Shown here: piece after piece, positions 15,047 to 23,509 of the stretch
How positions within the stretch are numbered: the first letter of the stretch is position 1
Layout of the letters: the number at the start of each line of letters is the position of its first letter
DNA from: Acidimicrobiaceae bacterium
GTDB lineage: Bacteria > Actinomycetota > Acidimicrobiia > Acidimicrobiales > Acidimicrobiaceae
Assembly (NCBI GenBank): GCA_013044385.1
Contig: JABEUN010000036.1
Coordinates: 1 to 50,286 of the forward strand
DNA: 50,286 nt
Direction: 5' to 3'
The notes under the pieces: model-generated
Database searches by the model: none
What the model was told of the DNA's origin: nothing
The model's input: the letters and a program-made list of their open reading frames with translations, nothing else
Translations under genes and position numbers: made by a program

Positions 15047-16511
15047 CGAAACGAACCAGTCGCCGTCGGCGCCTTCTTTCCTTCCCGAAGGTTGGGAGAT
15101 TGTGTGCGGCCTCGAGGTACATACCGAGCTTAAGACCAGGACCAAGCTCTTTTGTGGCTGCTTGAATGAGTTTGGGTCCTATCCAAACACGAACATCTGC
15201 CCGGTTTGCCTTGGTCTGCCTGGCGCTCTGCCGGTTTTGAATGGTGAAGCGCTCGAAATCGCGGCCAGGATCGGCCTGGCACTCAATGCGACGGTGCAGG
15301 CGTCCATCTTCCACCGGAAGAACTACTTCTACCCTGACATGCCCAAGGATTTCCAGATCAGCCAGTACGACATTCCGCTGAATGCAGATGGCTATCTGAT
15401 TCTTCCCTCTGGAGTTCGCATAGGAATCGTCAGGGCACACATGGAAGAGGACACTGGCAAGATCACCCACCTTGGTGGCTCCTCGGGGAGAATCCATGGG
15501 GCCGAAAGAGCGTTGATCGACTACAACAGGTCTGGCGTGCCCCTTGTCGAGATCGTGTCTGCTCCAGATATCGCCTCGCCAGACGAGGCAAGGCAGTACG
15601 TTACGGAACTCCGGGCCATCTTAATTGCGATCGGAGCGTCGGACGGGAAGATGGAGGAGGGCTCACTTAGGGTTGATGCCAACGTCTCGGTGCGTCCGAT
15701 TGGTGAGTCGGAATTTCGTACGCGGTGCGAGATCAAGAACCTTAATTCGCTGAGATCGCTGGTCAGGGCTATCACCTATGAGGCACAACGACAGGTTGAG
15801 GTGTACACTGCGGCTGGCGAAGTGCTGCAGCAGACTCGCCACTGGGACGAGGATCGTTCGATCACTGTGGCCTTGCGCACCAAAGAGGAGGCGGAGGACT
15901 ATAGGTACTTTCCGGAGCCGGACCTTGTACCGCTCGAGCCGACGGAAAGTTGGATCGGCGGGCTGAGAGAGTCGCTCCCGGAGCTTCCGCGACAGAGACG
16001 GTTGAGGCTTTGCGATCTAGTCGGTTTGGACAGCGCCAATGACCAGATCGAGACGGCTATCTTGCCCGAGCTTTACGGATTCGTTGATGCTGCACTCAAC
16101 GCAGGTGTCGATCCTAAGCTCGTGGTTGCCAGGGCGTCGAACGAATTAGCCAGCCTTCTTCCGATACCAGATGGGTACGAGCTCGAATGGTTCAGCGATC
16201 TTTGCCGAATGGAGATGGAGCGCAAGCTCAGCTCGACTCAGGCCAAGGCGGTTCTTCAGGAGTCCGTAAAGAGCCTTACCCCACCCGCTGTGGTACGTGA
16301 CAGGTTGGGTATCACACAGCTAGATGATGACGAATTGATGATTCAGATCAAGAGTATTGTCGAGGAGAACTCGGATGAGTGGACGAGGCTCAAAGCGGGC
16401 GAGATGCAGCTGAAAGGGTTCTTCATCGGACAGATTATGAAGAAGACCGGCGGCAAGGCGGACGGCAAAATAGCCGCAAAGATGCTAGCGGTGCTGCTGT
16501 CAGAAGATTAG
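15036..16511 (+). CDS. gatB: Asp/Glu-tRNA amidotransferase subunit B
   Basis: Kinase/transamidase subunit that activates the misacylated tRNA and takes up ammonia from GatA. The opening 'WEIVCGLEVHTELKT', the zinc-type Cys pairs in 'LFCGCLNE' and 'NICPVCLGLPG', 'NYFYPDMPKDFQISQYD' and the C-terminal YqeY-like helices (to 'GKIAAKMLAVLL') are all present. 491 residues. GTG start inside the gatA end. Presence of gatCAB suggests the indirect route for Gln- and/or Asn-tRNA. Confidence 0.97.
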   Translation: MVDSETNQSPSAPSFLPEGWEIVCGLEVHTELKTRTKLFCGCLNEFGSYPNTNICPVCLGLPGALPVLNGEALEIAARIGLALNATVQASIFHRKNYFYPDMPKDFQISQYDIPLNADGYLILPSGVRIGIVRAHMEEDTGKITHLGGSSGRIHGAERALIDYNRSGVPLVEIVSAPDIASPDEARQYVTELRAILIAIGASDGKMEEGSLRVDANVSVRPIGESEFRTRCEIKNLNSLRSLVRAITYEAQRQVEVYTAAGEVLQQTRHWDEDRSITVALRTKEEAEDYRYFPEPDLVPLEPTESWIGGLRESLPELPRQRRLRLCDLVGLDSANDQIETAILPELYGFVDAALNAGVDPKLVVARASNELASLLPIPDGYELEWFSDLCRMEMERKLSSTQAKAVLQESVKSLTPPAVVRDRLGITQLDDDELMIQIKSIVEENSDEWTRLKAGEMQLKGFFIGQIMKKTGGKADGKIAAKMLAVLLSED

Positions 16512-16594
16512 CCAGGTGGGCTTTGGCTCAGCGGCGGATGACAATTTTTTGAGGCGTTCTAGGCGTGGTCTTAGGTCGTCAGAGCGAACTGTAG

Positions 16595-18301
16595 ATGGGA
16601 GTTGAAGTGGCAGAAGAGCGGAGCCTATCGGACATGAGGCCCAGGAGCAAAGAGGTTACTGAAGGTTTCAGGCGTGCCCCTGCGCGGGCCATGCTCCGAG
16701 CGGTGGGTATGCAGGACGGCGACTTTTCGAAACCGCAGATCGCTGTGGCGTCATCACATAACGAAGTGACTCCTTGCAACTTACCATTGGGTGCGTTGGC
16801 AAGGGCCGCCAAGCAGGGTGTGCTTGAGGCCGGCGGCTTTCCACTCGAGTTCACCACCATAGCGGTATCCGATGGGATTTCAATGGGCCACGAGGGGATG
16901 CGCGCCTCGTTGGCGTCCAGGGAGATTATTGCCGACTCGGTGGAGGCGATGATGCACGCGGAGCGCTTTGACGGCGTAGTCACACTTGCAGGGTGCGACA
17001 AATCTTTGCCGGGCATGCTAATGGCGGCTGCCCGATTAGATCTGCCGTCGGTTTTTCTCTATGGCGGCACAATTTTGCCAGGACATGTGGATGGTCGTGC
17101 AATTGACATAGTCGATGTCTTCGAAGCAGTGGGAGCCTACGCCACCGGCGGACTTACGTCCGAGGAGCTTTCATTGATCGAAAAGAACGCTTGTCCGACC
17201 ATCGGAAGCTGCGCGGGTATGTTCACAGCCAACACGATGGCTTCAGTAGGAGAGGCACTTGGCATGTCACTTCTGGGGTCGGCCTCTGCGCCAGCAGTCG
17301 ATTCCCGCAGGTCCGATTTCGCAGTCGAGGCCGGCCGCGCCGTAGTAAATCTGCTATCCAAAGGGATCACTTCACGACAGATAATGACCAAGCAGGCGTT
17401 CGAAAATGCAATATCGGTCGTAATGGCTCTCGGTGGATCGACAAATGCGGTTCTCCACCTTCTAGCTATCGCATATGAGGCGAGAGTGGAGCTCGAGCTA
17501 GACGATTTCAACAGGATCGCCAAGCGTGTTCCGCATCTGGCAGATACCAAGCCCCACGGCAAATTCCATATGACCGACATTGATGCAATTGGTGGCGTAC
17601 CCGTAGTTTTGGCGGAGTTGGCAGAGCGCGGCTTGTTGCATACCGACGTCATGACCGTTTCTGGGCTCAGCATGGGCGATAATCTTTCGGCGTTGAAACC
17701 CCCGAAGCCAGATGGAGTGGTAATCCACAACTTCGACAATCCGATCAATAAGATCGGTGGCATCGCCGTTCTTACTGGGTCGCTAGCACCAAAGGGGTCT
17801 GTCGTCAAGGTAGCCGGAATCGACGCAGATTATTTCGAGGGTGTGGCCCGGGTTTTTGACGGAGAGCAGGCGGCTCTTGACGCGATTCTTGCGGACGAAA
17901 TCAAGCCGAATACGGTCGTCGTCATACGCTATGAGGGCCCCAAGGGTGGACCTGGCATGCGGGAGATGCTCGCTGTTACGGGTGCGATGAAGGGTGCGGG
18001 TAGAGGGTCGGACAGTGCTCTAGTCACCGACGGTAGATTCTCCGGCGGAACCCATGGACTCTGCATCGGACACGTGGCGCCCGAGGCGATTGACAATGGC
18101 CCGATTGCTCTGGTCAGAGATGGTGACCGAATTGTCGTCGACGTCAAGGCGAATCTCATCGATTTGAAGGTGAGCGAGGCCGAATTGGCGGAAAGGGCGC
18201 AATCAGTCAACCATCCTGCTCCCCTCTACACCTCTGGATTCCTGGCCAAGTATGCACGTTTGGTTAAAGGAGCAGAAATTGGAGCCGTTACGGAGGCTTA
18301 G
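16595..18301 (+). CDS. ilvD: Dihydroxy-acid dehydratase
   Basis: Fe-S enzyme for the third common step of valine/isoleucine synthesis, dehydrating 2,3-dihydroxy acids to 2-oxo acids. Cluster Cys motifs '[11 protein letters not shown]' and '[14 protein letters not shown]' are present, along with '[14 protein letters not shown]' and '[20 protein letters not shown]'. 568 residues, as expected. It stands 31 nt before the BCAA leader peptide, so readthrough into ilvBNC would pass the attenuator. Confidence 0.97.
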
Positions 18302-18318
18302 GTTGGAGTTGTTCGGAC

Positions 18319-18324
18319 TATATT
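18319..18324 (+). promoter_or_regulatory. Candidate -10 box (TATATT) for the ilv leader
   Basis: TATATT ends seven bases before the leader ATG at 18332. At normal spacing, transcription would begin at or next to that ATG, giving a leaderless leader peptide, as is common in actinobacteria. No good -35 is seen. Confidence 0.45.
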
Positions 18325-18331
18325 CTGCACT

Positions 18332-18373
18332 ATGGCATTTTCGGCCCGACTGATTGTAGTACTTGGTATGTAG
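18332..18373 (+). CDS. ilvL: Branched-chain amino acid leader peptide (attenuator ORF)
   Basis: Thirteen codons, MAFSARLIVVLGM, then TAG. Residues 7-11 are Leu-Ile-Val-Val-Leu in a row, all products of the pathway encoded downstream. This is the classic content of a transcription attenuation leader: scarce charged tRNA for these amino acids would stall the ribosome on the run. The stop codon lies inside the first hairpin, and a strong terminator follows 30 bases later. No ribosome-binding sequence precedes it, consistent with leaderless translation. Symbol by analogy with other ilv leaders. Confidence 0.8.
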   Translation: MAFSARLIVVLGM

Positions 18374-18401
18374 CGTGGCGGAGTTCACTCCGGTGCGCTA
18401 C
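18370..18401 (+). promoter_or_regulatory. ilv attenuator, first hairpin
   Basis: GTAGCG (18370-18375) pairs with CGCTAC (18396-18401), and inside it CGGAG (18379-18383) pairs with CTCCG (18388-18392) around a TTCA loop. The 5' arm contains the leader stop codon. GGAGTTC (18380-18386) can also pair, six of seven bases, with GACCTCC (18404-18410) of the terminator, a possible antiterminator when a ribosome stalls upstream. The alternative pairing is inference. Confidence 0.7.
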
Positions 18402-18402
18402 G

Positions 18403-18432
18403 AGACCTCCCCTTGGGGAGGTCTTTTGTTTT
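18403..18432 (+). terminator. Intrinsic terminator of the ilv attenuator
   Basis: GACCTCCC and GGGAGGTC form an 8-bp stem, closed by CTTG (18412-18415), and TTTTGTTTT follows directly (18424-18432). An A-T pair can extend the base. It lies between the leader peptide and ilvB on the plus strand. Confidence 0.9.
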
Positions 18433-18606
18433 ATCCGAGTGATTCCAATTGTCCAAGCTGCAGAACTCAGACTCCCGGGTTCGGAATGACTGTCGCTGGT
18501 AATCAGTGGGTGGGAGCTCTCTGAGTAGCCATGGCGAGTGTCGAGGTGTTTTGGCCGCAGATCGGCGCCAACTAGGGCGTCGATCCTAGAACTGGGGAGT
18601 CGTAGC

Positions 18607-20325
18607 GTGAGACTTACTGGAGCTCAGGCGCTAATCAAGAGCCTGGAAATGCAAGGTGTCGAGGTCATTTTTGGCCTGCCAGGAGGAGCTATCCTTCCGG
18701 TGTATGACCCGTTGCTCGACTCGTCGATACGGCACATACTTGTACGGCATGAGCAGGGTGCAGGACATGCTGCAGAGGGATACGCCCATGTGACTGGAAG
18801 GCCCGGAGTGGCGATGGTCACTTCTGGACCTGCTGCAACGAATGTGGTTACAGCCCTTGCCGACGCCTACATGGACTCGATCCCCCTTGTGATGATCACT
18901 GGCCAAGTGGCTACGTCCTCTATTGGAACAGACGCCTTTCAAGAGGCAGATACAACCGGTATTACCATGAGCGTCACCAAACACAACTGGCTGATCACCA
19001 CTGCAGCAGACATACCGAGAGTGATTCGAGAAGCTTTCCATGTGGCTACCACCGGCAGGCCGGGCCCAGTTCTGGTCGACTTGCCAAAGGACGTGTCCAA
19101 TCAGATGATGGATTGGTATTGGCCCGATTCGGTCGACCTGCCCGGCTACAAACCTACGATCAAGGGCCACCCAAAGATGATCAGCTCGGCCGCAAAGATG
19201 ATACTCGAGGCAAGAAGGCCGATCATATACGCTGGAGGAGGGATAATCAGATCCGGTGCCTCGAAGCAGTTGCTTGAGTTGGCCGAACTGACCGGGATAC
19301 CGGTTGTCACCACCCTGATGGGTAGGGGGTGCTTCCCTGATCGTCACCCGCTCTGTCTGGGGATGCCCGGTATGCACGGCAACTACACCGCGGTCACCTC
19401 GATGCAGAAGGCGGATCTTCTCATCACACTCGGCGCCCGGTTTGATGATCGTGTCACCGGGAAAGTGGACGGTTTCGCTCCTTATGCAAAAGTGATCCAT
19501 GTGGACATAGACCCGGCCGAACTTGGCAAGATCCGAAATCCCGATGTCCCGATCGTCGGAGATCTCAAGCAGGTCATAGCTGAGATGGTGAAGGAACTGA
19601 AGAAGTCCAAGGTCGAACTTCCGGACCTGTTGCGGCCTTGGCTCGCACAGTTGAGGCAGTGGCAGGAGCAGTTCCCACTCAAATATGACCAGGAGTTTGA
19701 GGGCGGTCCAATCAAGCCGCAGTACGTCGTGGAGCGTCTCAGGGAGCTGACCCCTCTCGACGCGATAGTCGTCTCTGGCGTTGGCCAACATCAGATGTGG
19801 GCCTCTCAATTCTGGAAGTTTGATCATCCGAATACCTGGGTAAATTCAGGCGGCCTTGGCACAATGGGCTTTGCCATACCTGCGGCGATCGGTGCGAAGG
19901 TCGGACATCCAGACAAGGTCGTCTGGGCGATCGACGGTGACGGGTGCTTCCAGATGACAGCGCAGGAACTCGTTACGGCAACGGCCGAGAGGATTCCGAT
20001 AAAAGTGGCGATACTCAACAACGCATACCTAGGTATGGTGAGACAGTGGCAGGAGATGTTCTATTCTGAGCGCTACTCCGAGGTTTACCTTTCTCCGGAC
20101 CTACCTGACTATGTGAAGTGGGCAGAAGCCATGGGATGTGTCGGTATGCGGGTCGACGATCCGGGTCAGGTTGATGTCGCTATAGAGAAGGCCAACCAGA
20201 TCGTGGATCGTCCCGTCGTAATAGATTTTCGTACCGATACGTGGGAGAAGGTCTTCCCGATGGTTCCGTCGGGCGCTAGTAACGACGAGATCGTGGTCGG
20301 TCCGCAGAATGAGGGGGAGCAGTGA
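18607..20325 (+). CDS. ilvB: Acetolactate synthase, large (catalytic) subunit
   Basis: ThDP/FAD enzyme that condenses pyruvate with pyruvate or 2-oxobutyrate, the first committed step to Val/Leu/Ile. '[13 protein letters not shown]', the catalytic Glu in '[14 protein letters not shown]', '[19 protein letters not shown]' and the ThDP site GDG...NN ('DGDGCFQM', '[13 protein letters not shown]') are all present. I start at GTG 18607 because GGGGAG (18594-18599) precedes it by seven bases and the protein then begins '[19 protein letters not shown]', as in the family. The stop overlaps the ilvN start (GTGA). It is expected to be under the upstream attenuator. Confidence 0.97.
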
Positions 20326-20903
20326 GTTCGACTAACCACGGCCTTGTGCCAATTGGTTCCATTCGTGGGGTCCCAAGGGCTCGACATCATGTGCTATCGG
20401 TGCTGGTGGAGAACAAAGCCGGCGTGCTCGCAAGGGTTGCCCAACTATTCTCCCGACGGGCGTACAACATCTTTTCTTTGGCGGTAGCGCCCACAGAGGA
20501 CGAACGCTTCTCAAGGATCACCATTGTGGTCGACGTGGACTCATCACCGCTCGAACAGATTACAAAACAGCTTCACAAACTTATTAATGTGATCAAAATC
20601 TCCGAGATAGACCCCGTGGAGGCTGTCGAATACGAACTTCTCCTGGCGAGTGTCGAGGTGACCACGGAACAGAGATCAAATCTTGTCGAGCTGGCCACCA
20701 TCTTCGGAGCCAAGATAGTGGATGTCGGTTTCGACCGCCTGACAGTGATGCTCGCGGATCCGCCTGATAAGTTGGACGACTTTGAGGATCTGTTGAGGCA
20801 GTTTAAGATTGTCGAAGTGCAGCGGACTGGTAGGGTTGCTCTGGCAAAGTTGGACAGGGTACCACCTAATCGCGCAAGATCCCAGAGAGGAAAGGCTTCT
20901 TAG
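20322..20903 (+). CDS. ilvN: Acetolactate synthase, small (regulatory) subunit
   Basis: Regulatory partner of IlvB that confers valine feedback. An N-terminal ACT domain is clear ('[20 protein letters not shown]', then '[15 protein letters not shown]'), followed by the C-terminal ALS_ss domain. 193 residues. GTG start overlaps the ilvB stop; its stop touches the ilvC ATG. Also called ilvH in some genomes. Confidence 0.95.
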
Positions 20904-21929
20904 ATGGCGAAGATGTATTACGAGGTAGATGCCGATCCGAGCCTCGTTCTTGGCAAGAAGGTGCTGATAATTGGATACGGTTCGCAGGGCCACGCACACG
21001 CCCTGAACCTCGCCGATTCCGGCGTTGACGTTACGGTCGGCCTCCGGGAGAATTCTCCGTCGACAGACAAGGCCAAGGCCGCAGGTCTCAAGGTCAGCAC
21101 GGTTGCTGAGGCCGCTAAGACCGCAGACCTGATCATGTTCTTGTCGCCAGATACGGTTCAGAAGAAGATCTACGAAGCTGAGGTAGCACCGCAACTTCGT
21201 CCAGGTGTCGCTATTGCATTTGCCCATGGTTTCAACGTCCGCTTCGGACAGATCGCTGCACCCGCTGACGTCGACGTGATCATGATCGCTCCAAAGGGTC
21301 CAGGTCACCTGCTCAGAAGGACATACCAGGAGGGCGGGGGAATTCCGTCCCTGATAGCGGTGGAGCAGGATGCAACCGGGATTGCTCACTCCATCGCCCT
21401 GTCGTACGCCCATGCGATCGGTTCTACCAAGGCCGGAGTTCTCGACACGACCTTCTCCGAAGAGACCGAGACCGACCTCTTCGGTGAGCAAGTTGTCCTG
21501 TGTGGAGGTTTGGCGTCACTGGTCCAAGCCGGGTTCGAGACATTAGTTGAAGCCGGTTACCAACCGGAGTCGGCATATTTCGAATGCCTCCATGAACTCA
21601 AGTTGATTGTCGACTTGCTTTATGAAGAGGGACTGTCGGGAATGTGGTTCTCGGTTTCGGAGACTGCTGAGTACGGAGGGTTGACTCGTGGGCCGAGAAT
21701 TGTCACCTCTGAGACCAAGACCGAGATGAAGAAGGTTCTCGAGGAGATTCAGACTGGCAAGTTTGCCGATGAGTGGATCGCCGAGAACGAGGCCGGACAA
21801 CCGCATTTCAATGCGTTGAGGAAGCAAGCTAACGATCACCCGATCGAAGATGTCGGCAGGCAGTTGCGAGCCATGATGCCGTTCTTGTCGACCGGAAAGC
21901 CTGGCATCCGCGACATTTCCGGAGGCTGA
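20904..21929 (+). CDS. ilvC: Ketol-acid reductoisomerase, class I
   Basis: Isomerises and reduces acetolactate (or acetohydroxybutyrate) to the dihydroxy acid. The N-terminal Rossmann site '[18 protein letters not shown]' and the nearby '[12 protein letters not shown]' loop, with Arg and Ser that favour NADPH, are visible. So are '[15 protein letters not shown]' and the Mg-binding knotted domain ('[12 protein letters not shown]', '[12 protein letters not shown]'). 341 residues, the short class I form. It begins directly after ilvN, completing ilvBNC. Confidence 0.97.
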
Positions 21930-22081
21930 TCCAAATATCGGACCCATTCTCGGACCTAAATGCGGCGAGGCGAACCCATTTCAGCCATAGAGTCGAGCCG
22001 CTTCAAGCGATATATAGAGCGTACTTAGCCGCTGCATCTCTCGGTGTAGCGGCTGCGTTCGTTGCTAGTGCCACCACTTCG

Positions 22082-23509
22082 ATGGCTGCAAATGTCGCCG
22101 ACAGAAGGCTGGTTGGGTCTTATTTGGTACCTGTGGCTACGACTCTGTGGCTCCTTTCGATGCTTTTTGGCATACGCAGTGGCCAAAGAGGGGGCCCACT
22201 CAGTCTTCAGGGATCTGAGATACGTATGGTTCTACTTTCGCCATACCCACGCGAGAGGCTGTTTCGATCAAAACTTCTGCGTACATTGCGACATTGGCTG
22301 TTCATGGGCTTGGTGTTCGGTGGACTCGTTGGAATCTCGATCGCGCACCTCCTTGGCTCAACTAGGGGTGGCCAAGGTAGTCTCGCCGGTGCACTATACG
22401 GGGCACTTGTCGCACTGACGTATTGTTGTTCTGCGGCGGTGGCGTCGGGGGCTCAGCTCTCCAAAATGGTTGGCGCCCTCGTTGGCATTCTGATTCTGGC
22501 GGCGGCGGTCGTCGCTCCGTTCGACTCCGCACACCATATTGCCGGGTTTCTGCCTGGCGGACTCATGTTGATGGGAGACTTCGGGGCGACAGTTTCCGGC
22601 TCCACTATCTCTTACGCCATAGCACTGGCACTCGGAGTCGTTCTAATTCTCTCTGCCATCTTTTTGGTGCCGGGCGTGGACCCTGAAATGCTTGAGCGTA
22701 GAACTCGGCTAATAGGTCTGATCCGTTACGCAGCAACATTCAGGGACTTCCGCTCTGTGGTACTGATACGTCGCGCGCTTATAGGCGACAAGGTCCATGC
22801 ACACAAACAGATCACAAAACCGTTCGAACAACATCTCATGACTAGATTTCCGGCCTTCTGGAGGGCGATTGTTCCAATGCTCAGGTGGAGCTGGATTCGG
22901 GTCGCAAGGGTCGCAGGATTGCTCGCCATCACGCTGCTTTCAGCCCGCTATGCAGTTACAACATCGGAGCTATTTGTAGTCCCAGGAGTCGTCTGTTCCT
23001 GGCTGGTGGGGCTTGAATTGACAGACGCATTGGGCCAGGACGCTGACACCTCTGAGATCCTCTCACTCAGTGGTACCAGTAGGGGGCCGTTCCAAAGGGT
23101 CCTCGCCTTGGCTCCTTCGGTGGTGGCGATACTGCTCGCCATTCCAACCTTGGTCCTCGTGCTGATTCTCCCTGACGGTGTGAGGGGGATAGGTATCGTA
23201 GGAATAGTACTGATACCCATTCTGGCCTCGGGACTCGTAGGTGCAGCGGTTTCTGTCGTCCGGGAAGCTGGATCTAGTTCTCAGATTGCATTCTCCATGT
23301 CGCCAGATACGGTTCAGATTGTTGTGCTTGTTATTGAGCTCCTCCCACTGATTCTCGCCGGCGCAGGCTTCATTCCGGTTGTGGAGGCTCACGGCAAGAT
23401 TGGGTCCACCGTGAATCTCTACTCGACACTAATCTCATCAGGTACGTTCTCGCTGGTAGTACCACTCGCAGGTTCGGCCTGGATCGCTAGGAGGACCAGC
23501 GCACAATGA
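22082..23509 (+). CDS. Multi-spanning membrane protein, probable ABC exporter permease
   Basis: A 475-residue hydrophobic protein with about ten or more predicted helices, whose stop overlaps the start of an ABC ATPase gene by four bases, so it is most likely the membrane part of that transporter. No substrate signature is visible. ATG 22082 has no ribosome-binding site. The frame continues open upstream to 21833 and, from 21938, reads as credible protein ('SDPFSDLNAARRTH', then a hydrophobic stretch 'AAASLGVAAAFVAS'), but holds no ATG, GTG or TTG. The true start may be an unusual codon near the ilvC stop (for example CTG 21926). Confidence 0.7.
   Translation: MAANVADRRLVGSYLVPVATTLWLLSMLFGIRSGQRGGPLSLQGSEIRMVLLSPYPRERLFRSKLLRTLRHWLFMGLVFGGLVGISIAHLLGSTRGGQGSLAGALYGALVALTYCCSAAVASGAQLSKMVGALVGILILAAAVVAPFDSAHHIAGFLPGGLMLMGDFGATVSGSTISYAIALALGVVLILSAIFLVPGVDPEMLERRTRLIGLIRYAATFRDFRSVVLIRRALIGDKVHAHKQITKPFEQHLMTRFPAFWRAIVPMLRWSWIRVARVAGLLAITLLSARYAVTTSELFVVPGVVCSWLVGLELTDALGQDADTSEILSLSGTSRGPFQRVLALAPSVVAILLAIPTLVLVLILPDGVRGIGIVGIVLIPILASGLVGAAVSVVREAGSSSQIAFSMSPDTVQIVVLVIELLPLILAGAGFIPVVEAHGKIGSTVNLYSTLISSGTFSLVVPLAGSAWIARRTSAQ

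Follow-up and report, generated by a model that had tools for sequence, protein, structure and literature searches.

The gap between ilvD and ilvB in the actinobacterial DNA studied here very probably contains a ribosome-mediated transcription attenuator that controls ilvBNC. Through this element the organism would switch its branched-chain amino acid (BCAA) operon by sensing the supply of leucine, isoleucine and valine, which we also regard as very probable. The analysed stretch (50,286 nucleotides, hereafter the window) belongs to an uncultured Acidimicrobiia-type actinobacterium. The genes of the locus and the parts of the element are the following:

16595-18301, forward strand: ilvD, dihydroxy-acid dehydratase, the upstream gene (NCBIfam TIGR00110, 721.8 bits, cut-off 618)
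18319-18324, forward strand: TATATT, a -10-like hexamer 7 nt 5' of the leader ATG
18332-18373, forward strand: leader ORF MAFSARLIVVLGM of 13 codons (ATG at 18332, TAG at 18371-18373), probably leaderless; homologous leaders lie 5' of ilvB in relatives
18350-18364, forward strand: control codons CTG ATT GTA GTA CTT (Leu-Ile-Val-Val-Leu), read directly
18370-18401, forward strand: hairpin P1 with the stop codon within its 5' base (from folding and covariation; in the model, a ribosome at the stop codon occludes it)
18402-18432, forward strand: intrinsic terminator with a stem at 18402-18425, then TTTTGTTTT at 18424-18432 (from folding and covariation)
18353-18430, forward strand: match to R2, a covariance model of 81 positions built from relatives (51.7 bits, E 1.7e-10; 7.9e-10 in the whole genome)
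18607-20325, forward strand: ilvB, acetolactate synthase large subunit, GTG start (NCBIfam NF005860, 925.1 bits, cut-off 881)
20322-20903, forward strand: ilvN, acetolactate synthase small subunit (NCBIfam NF008864, 192 bits, cut-off 119)
20904-21929, forward strand: ilvC, ketol-acid reductoisomerase (NCBIfam NF004017, 543.8 bits, cut-off 336)

Direct reading of the window confirmed to the base what the original prediction had described, namely the placement in the ilvD-ilvB gap, the 13-codon ORF, the TATATT hexamer, P1 and the terminator. The run of five consecutive Leu/Ile/Val codons and the stop codon inside a hairpin are present as well, and this architecture is conserved in the relatives. 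P1 continues into the terminator stem with no gap between them (18401/18402). By folding, the 105-nt RNA of the element reached -43.6 kcal/mol (z = -4.0), a value equalled by none of 200 shuffles, and among the terminator-like sites in positions 16000-22500 the terminator of the element is the strongest. At the leader site no -35 consensus, nor a sigma-70 promoter by consensus, was recognisable.

Relatives of IlvB, in which the element was followed, came from 60 whole genomes belonging to the same family and order and from 80 named contigs, which with few exceptions are Acidimicrobiia or Actinomycetota metagenome bins. An element of the same architecture could be assigned at 106 of the 108 ilvB loci with enough upstream sequence; 86 of these elements were non-redundant and 84 were usable for statistics, the loci being interrelated and mostly from metagenome bins, so that the counts are not independent. 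A typical element begins with a -10-like hexamer, an ATG or GTG and 8-20 codons ending in ..CTC GTA GTA..; next come a GCGCACG/CGTGCGC hairpin that has the stop codon at its base, (C)GACCTCCC..GGGAGGTCG and finally T-rich DNA. In the leader of the same genus, MANFASEIVVLPS, the IVVL is kept and the remainder is changed. A first covariance model (R1) comprised the terminator only and was replaced by R2, which was built from 58 elements with P1 added by hand. R2 found matches in 236 of 296 genomes of the class and in 84 of 296 genomes sampled throughout the phylum, the window's own class included. The conservation of the LIV-rich run and the hairpins upstream of ilvB in related genomes, on which the original prediction had been made to depend, is therefore present. 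The element in the window is real, and its class-wide recurrence before ilvB is far more than chance would give. Since 29 of 81 elements precede an ilvB without an ilvD immediately 5' of it in the stretch examined, the element goes with ilvB.

The two hairpins are conserved as structures. In 91 distinct aligned elements 93% of the cells pair. Two-sided changes occur at 13 of 17 pairs and amount to 137 cells, where shuffles gave 36 and slid controls 9-29. Because R2 guided the alignment, the pair counts lean to that structure, which the slid and shuffled controls offset in part. The core of P1 covaries at all seven of its pairs, while in the terminator stem 98% of the cells are paired and two-sided changes were seen at 4 of 8 pairs. 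The terminator that had been claimed to follow the hairpin is present, strong and conserved with covariation. P1 alone had a mean z of -4.5 over the 84 elements and lay below -1 sd in every one of them. P1 takes in one or more bases of the stop codon in 80/84 elements, and the distance from P1 to the terminator is 0-6 nt (median 2). The P1 loops of these elements are rich in C (45% C, 17% G). When the ribosome was modelled as covering 13 nt from the A-site codon, a P1 of at least 6 bp was calculated for 83 of 84 elements with the ribosome at the first GTA and for 6 of 84 with the ribosome at the stop codon. According to this model the formation of P1 would be set by the position of the ribosome.

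The start of the leader was analysed with start codons chosen by an unbiased rule. A hexamer nAnnnT was found 6-9 nt 5' of the leader start in 76 of the 84 elements, whereas the shuffles gave an expectation of 16.5. With the stricter NANN[AC]T a sharp peak was seen at the same 6-9 nt. SD-like motifs precede only seven of the 84 leaders, compared to 65 of the 84 ilvB genes. In S. lividans the distance from the TAnnnT -10 element to the transcript start is 4-9 nt (PMC8079986). Since the spacing found here matches that distance, the leader is expected throughout the class to be translated directly from the 5' end or from a point no more than about three bases away. The leaderless start, which had been called probable, is therefore well supported by hexamer spacing and by the scarcity of SD-like motifs. 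At the level of sequence, the leader, its control codons, the promoter spacing, P1 and the terminator can be considered established.

The codon content of the leaders points to the signal that is sensed. GTA occurs in all 84 ilvB leaders, usually 3-5 codons 5' of the stop, and it accounts for 155 of the 243 Val codons there, compared to 165 of 3685 (4.5%) in the ilvB genes that follow these leaders. This enrichment is not circular, because the leader stop codon was selected by LIV content and not by GTA. An invariant codon that is otherwise rare for Val suggests that sensing may proceed via one isoacceptor tRNA.

R2 also detects second elements in genomes, beyond those before ilvB, and their control codons vary with the operon. 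Before ilvB the control residues are mostly Val and Leu. In five leuA leaders all 18 control residues are Leu, in eight cimA leaders there are 25 Ile, 2 Val and 1 Leu among 28, and in ten leuB leaders 22 Ile, 16 Val and 2 Leu, i.e. 38 of 40 are Val or Ile; each of these ten stands before leuB-ilvE-cimA, which represents the route to isoleucine via citramalate. In the window's own genome there are three elements with codons matched to their operons. The second one (G000:C88:14776-14853, minus strand; L124, L173) precedes leuB-ilvE-cimA with the leader MKNFTPHSAVVVAIG. The third one precedes leuA (G000:C88, L172 about 500-612) with the leader MVVTAASLLLLT, and it has TATATT 7 nt before the ATG, a stop codon in a hairpin and the terminator AACCTCCT..AGGAGGTTTTTTG; it was spotted by reading upstream of leuA, as R2 did not report it even at E 5. 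The codons are likely to be read by ribosomes, because such a match between codons and pathway would otherwise be hard to explain.

From these data the following mechanism can be proposed. Transcription would start at or next to the leader ATG, as the conserved spacing suggests, and a ribosome would load at this 5' end, with no Shine-Dalgarno sequence involved. If charged Leu, Ile and Val tRNAs are plentiful, above all the tRNA reading GTA, the ribosome would reach the stop codon and cover the 5' arm of P1; with P1 blocked the terminator would form and transcription would stop. If charged tRNA is scarce, the ribosome would halt at the Leu-Ile-Val-Val-Leu codons, and P1 might then form right behind the RNA polymerase, 0-6 nt from the terminator, with read-through to ilvBNC as the result. 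We infer this polarity (P1 formed, read-through; P1 blocked, termination) by analogy with M. tuberculosis and C. glutamicum. In M. tuberculosis ilvB1 a ribosome at the stop codon leads to termination and the change of LVVI to AAAA abolishes induction (PMC13236596), while in C. glutamicum ilvBNC the function of the terminator was shown experimentally (PMC11857589).

Some observations speak against attenuation by the leader ribosome: there is no conserved antiterminator, the terminator is predicted in all ribosome states, no -35 box was recognised, and one genome (L019/L039) keeps the terminator with no recognisable BCAA leader. Furthermore, mutations of candidate control codons of S. coelicolor ilvB are reported to have had no effect (PMC1262725).

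The first of these points concerns the one part of the original prediction that was not upheld, the designation of the attenuator as complete, with an antiterminator formed by GGAGTTC (18380-18386) and GACCTCC (18404-18410). This pairing does not rise above the shuffles, is missing from the folds predicted for any ribosome position and has no conserved equivalent. Accepting it would make the element a classical three-hairpin attenuator, where GGAGTTC:GACCTCC forms upon ribosome stalling as a mutually exclusive antiterminator, and we judge this to be unlikely. It could be argued in its favour that both segments are present and 6 of 7 bases can pair, that the closest relatives keep by inspection a 5-bp GGGTC:GACCT (L003), that the antiterminator of C. 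glutamicum overlaps its terminator by three nt (PMC11857589), and that a comparable overlap, in which an extended P1 captures three nt of the terminator arm (GGU with ACC), appears in the window, though only without a ribosome or with the ribosome at the first Leu. However, the energy of the pairing in the window is only 0.9 sd better than that of shuffles (z -0.9), and its GGAGT part is already within P1. Pairing of this type had a mean z of 0.08 across the 84 elements, and in the window folds it is absent from the predicted optimum at every ribosome position. With the ribosome at the first GTA, at least 3 nt of the terminator arm are paired upstream in only two of the 84 elements.

Other antiterminators were tried on the 84 elements and rejected: the 3' terminator arm with the P1 loop (as in ilvB-II), the leader with either arm, and the 3' arm of P1 with the region beyond gave mean z values from -0.14 to 0.78. 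P1 or the leader against either terminator arm had a mean z about 0 or positive and no conserved antiterminator emerged, where it should be considered that the shuffles preserve the C-richness of the P1 loops and a composition-driven pairing with a G-rich arm would escape the test, as might overlaps of 3 nt, pseudoknots and kinetic effects. The prediction that the terminator forms in all ribosome states comes from energy models, which ignore kinetics and pseudoknots. It is possible, and we propose it tentatively, that the BCAA attenuators of Acidimicrobiia have no competing antiterminator at all: the ribosome might decide about P1 only, and P1 itself might block or spoil termination, e.g. by keeping the terminator hairpin from closing inside the RNA exit channel. 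A single module would then serve three or four operons, and its control codons would differ from pathway to pathway.

A constitutive terminator accompanied by an untranslated or irrelevant short ORF, which merely lowers the expression of ilvBNC or ends the ilvD transcripts, would agree with a strong terminator predicted in every state and with the S. coelicolor report mentioned above. It is nevertheless very improbable: the leader codons are conserved and matched to the downstream pathway in four kinds of operon, GTA is invariant, the stop codon lies inside P1 in nearly all elements, and elements were found with no ilvD directly upstream. Still less credible is a ligand-binding riboswitch or a T-box (e.g. 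sensing ppGpp or tRNA) in place of leader translation; ppGpp riboswitches do govern ilvB genes of some bacteria, as cited in PMC10272879, but the element has a simple structure of two hairpins whose loops vary, and the primary sequence is conserved in the codons and stems. Moreover, no family of Rfam release 15, with its riboswitch, T-box and leader families, matched the window at the gathering score, and at a permissive score 18250-18620 gave sub-threshold matches only (at most 24 bits, where the cut-off is 55).

In the ilv, leu and trp attenuators of proteobacteria control codons in a leader and a terminator before the first gene are found, as here. Those leaders are preceded by a Shine-Dalgarno sequence and have clear competing hairpins, whereas the present leader appears to be leaderless and has no conserved competing hairpin. 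The mechanism is of a known kind, since actinobacterial ilvB leader-peptide attenuators have been shown experimentally in Corynebacterium and Mycobacterium. Leader peptides and terminators before ilvB are known in Corynebacterium, Mycobacterium and Streptomyces (PMC1262725, PMC10272879), leaderless ones included (PMC8079986).

The ilvB1NC attenuator of M. tuberculosis likewise has a BCAA-rich uORF followed by a stop codon and an intrinsic terminator before ilvB, its control codons LVVI include GUA as here, and termination is allowed when a ribosome that has reached the stop codon masks RNA; there, however, the uORF lies inside a 166-nt 5' UTR and an antiterminator was predicted, while the ORF described here is predicted to be leaderless and no antiterminator is conserved (PMC13236596). 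The ilvB-II motif, to which the C. glutamicum ilvBNC attenuator corresponds, is a Corynebacterium-specific consensus and was compared by its described architecture only: it shares a hairpin containing the uORF, with an adjacent terminator upstream of ilvBNC, and resembles our elements in a start codon 1 nt from the transcript start, a BCAA leader of 15-17 residues and conserved control codons CUU and GUA (PMC10272879, PMC11857589). In C. glutamicum an antiterminator via a 3-nt hairpin overlap was proposed (PMC11857589), whereas P1 of the window starts at the stop codon, so that all the control codons lie before it. The Streptomyces leaders ilvL, leuL etc. (PMC8079986) and the predictions of Seliverstov et al. 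2005 (PMC1262725) likewise comprise short leaderless leaders before ilvB, leuA and others, and the -10 TAnnnT stands 4-9 nt before the start, like here (PMC8079986). The Streptomyces leuA leader has no terminator, unlike the leuA element found in this study.

In Acidimicrobiia the element is apparently undescribed: a literature search with most subscription journals outside its coverage found no paper on attenuators of the class, the titles on cimA leader peptides included none of apparent relevance, and none of the papers found describes the leuB-ilvE-cimA elements. What this study adds is the class-wide set, the matched codons before leuA and leuB-ilvE-cimA, the invariant GTA and the lack of a conserved antiterminator. 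A testable set of leaderless attenuators thus becomes available throughout a largely uncultured group. It also touches an old puzzle, that actinobacterial ilvB leaders resemble attenuators, yet no clear antiterminator could be recognised in them and the codon mutants in Streptomyces were reported to be silent. The comparative set shows what selection acts on, namely P1, its register with the stop codon and its closeness to the terminator.

Two deviations were observed among the relatives. In the genome with L019/L039, which is of the same family, the terminator is kept but a BCAA leader in frame was not assignable; the frame of its ilvB has a TAG within the matched stretch, so decay or an assembly error is possible. 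Seven Acidimicrobiales loci (L075, L076, L083, L090, L103, L104, L111), several apparently from marine bins, are not matched by R2 at E 0.01 and carry a variant with a TAA stop, a short GCGGG hairpin and a GGTCCCC..GGGGACC terminator, in which the CTC GTA GTA codons are retained.
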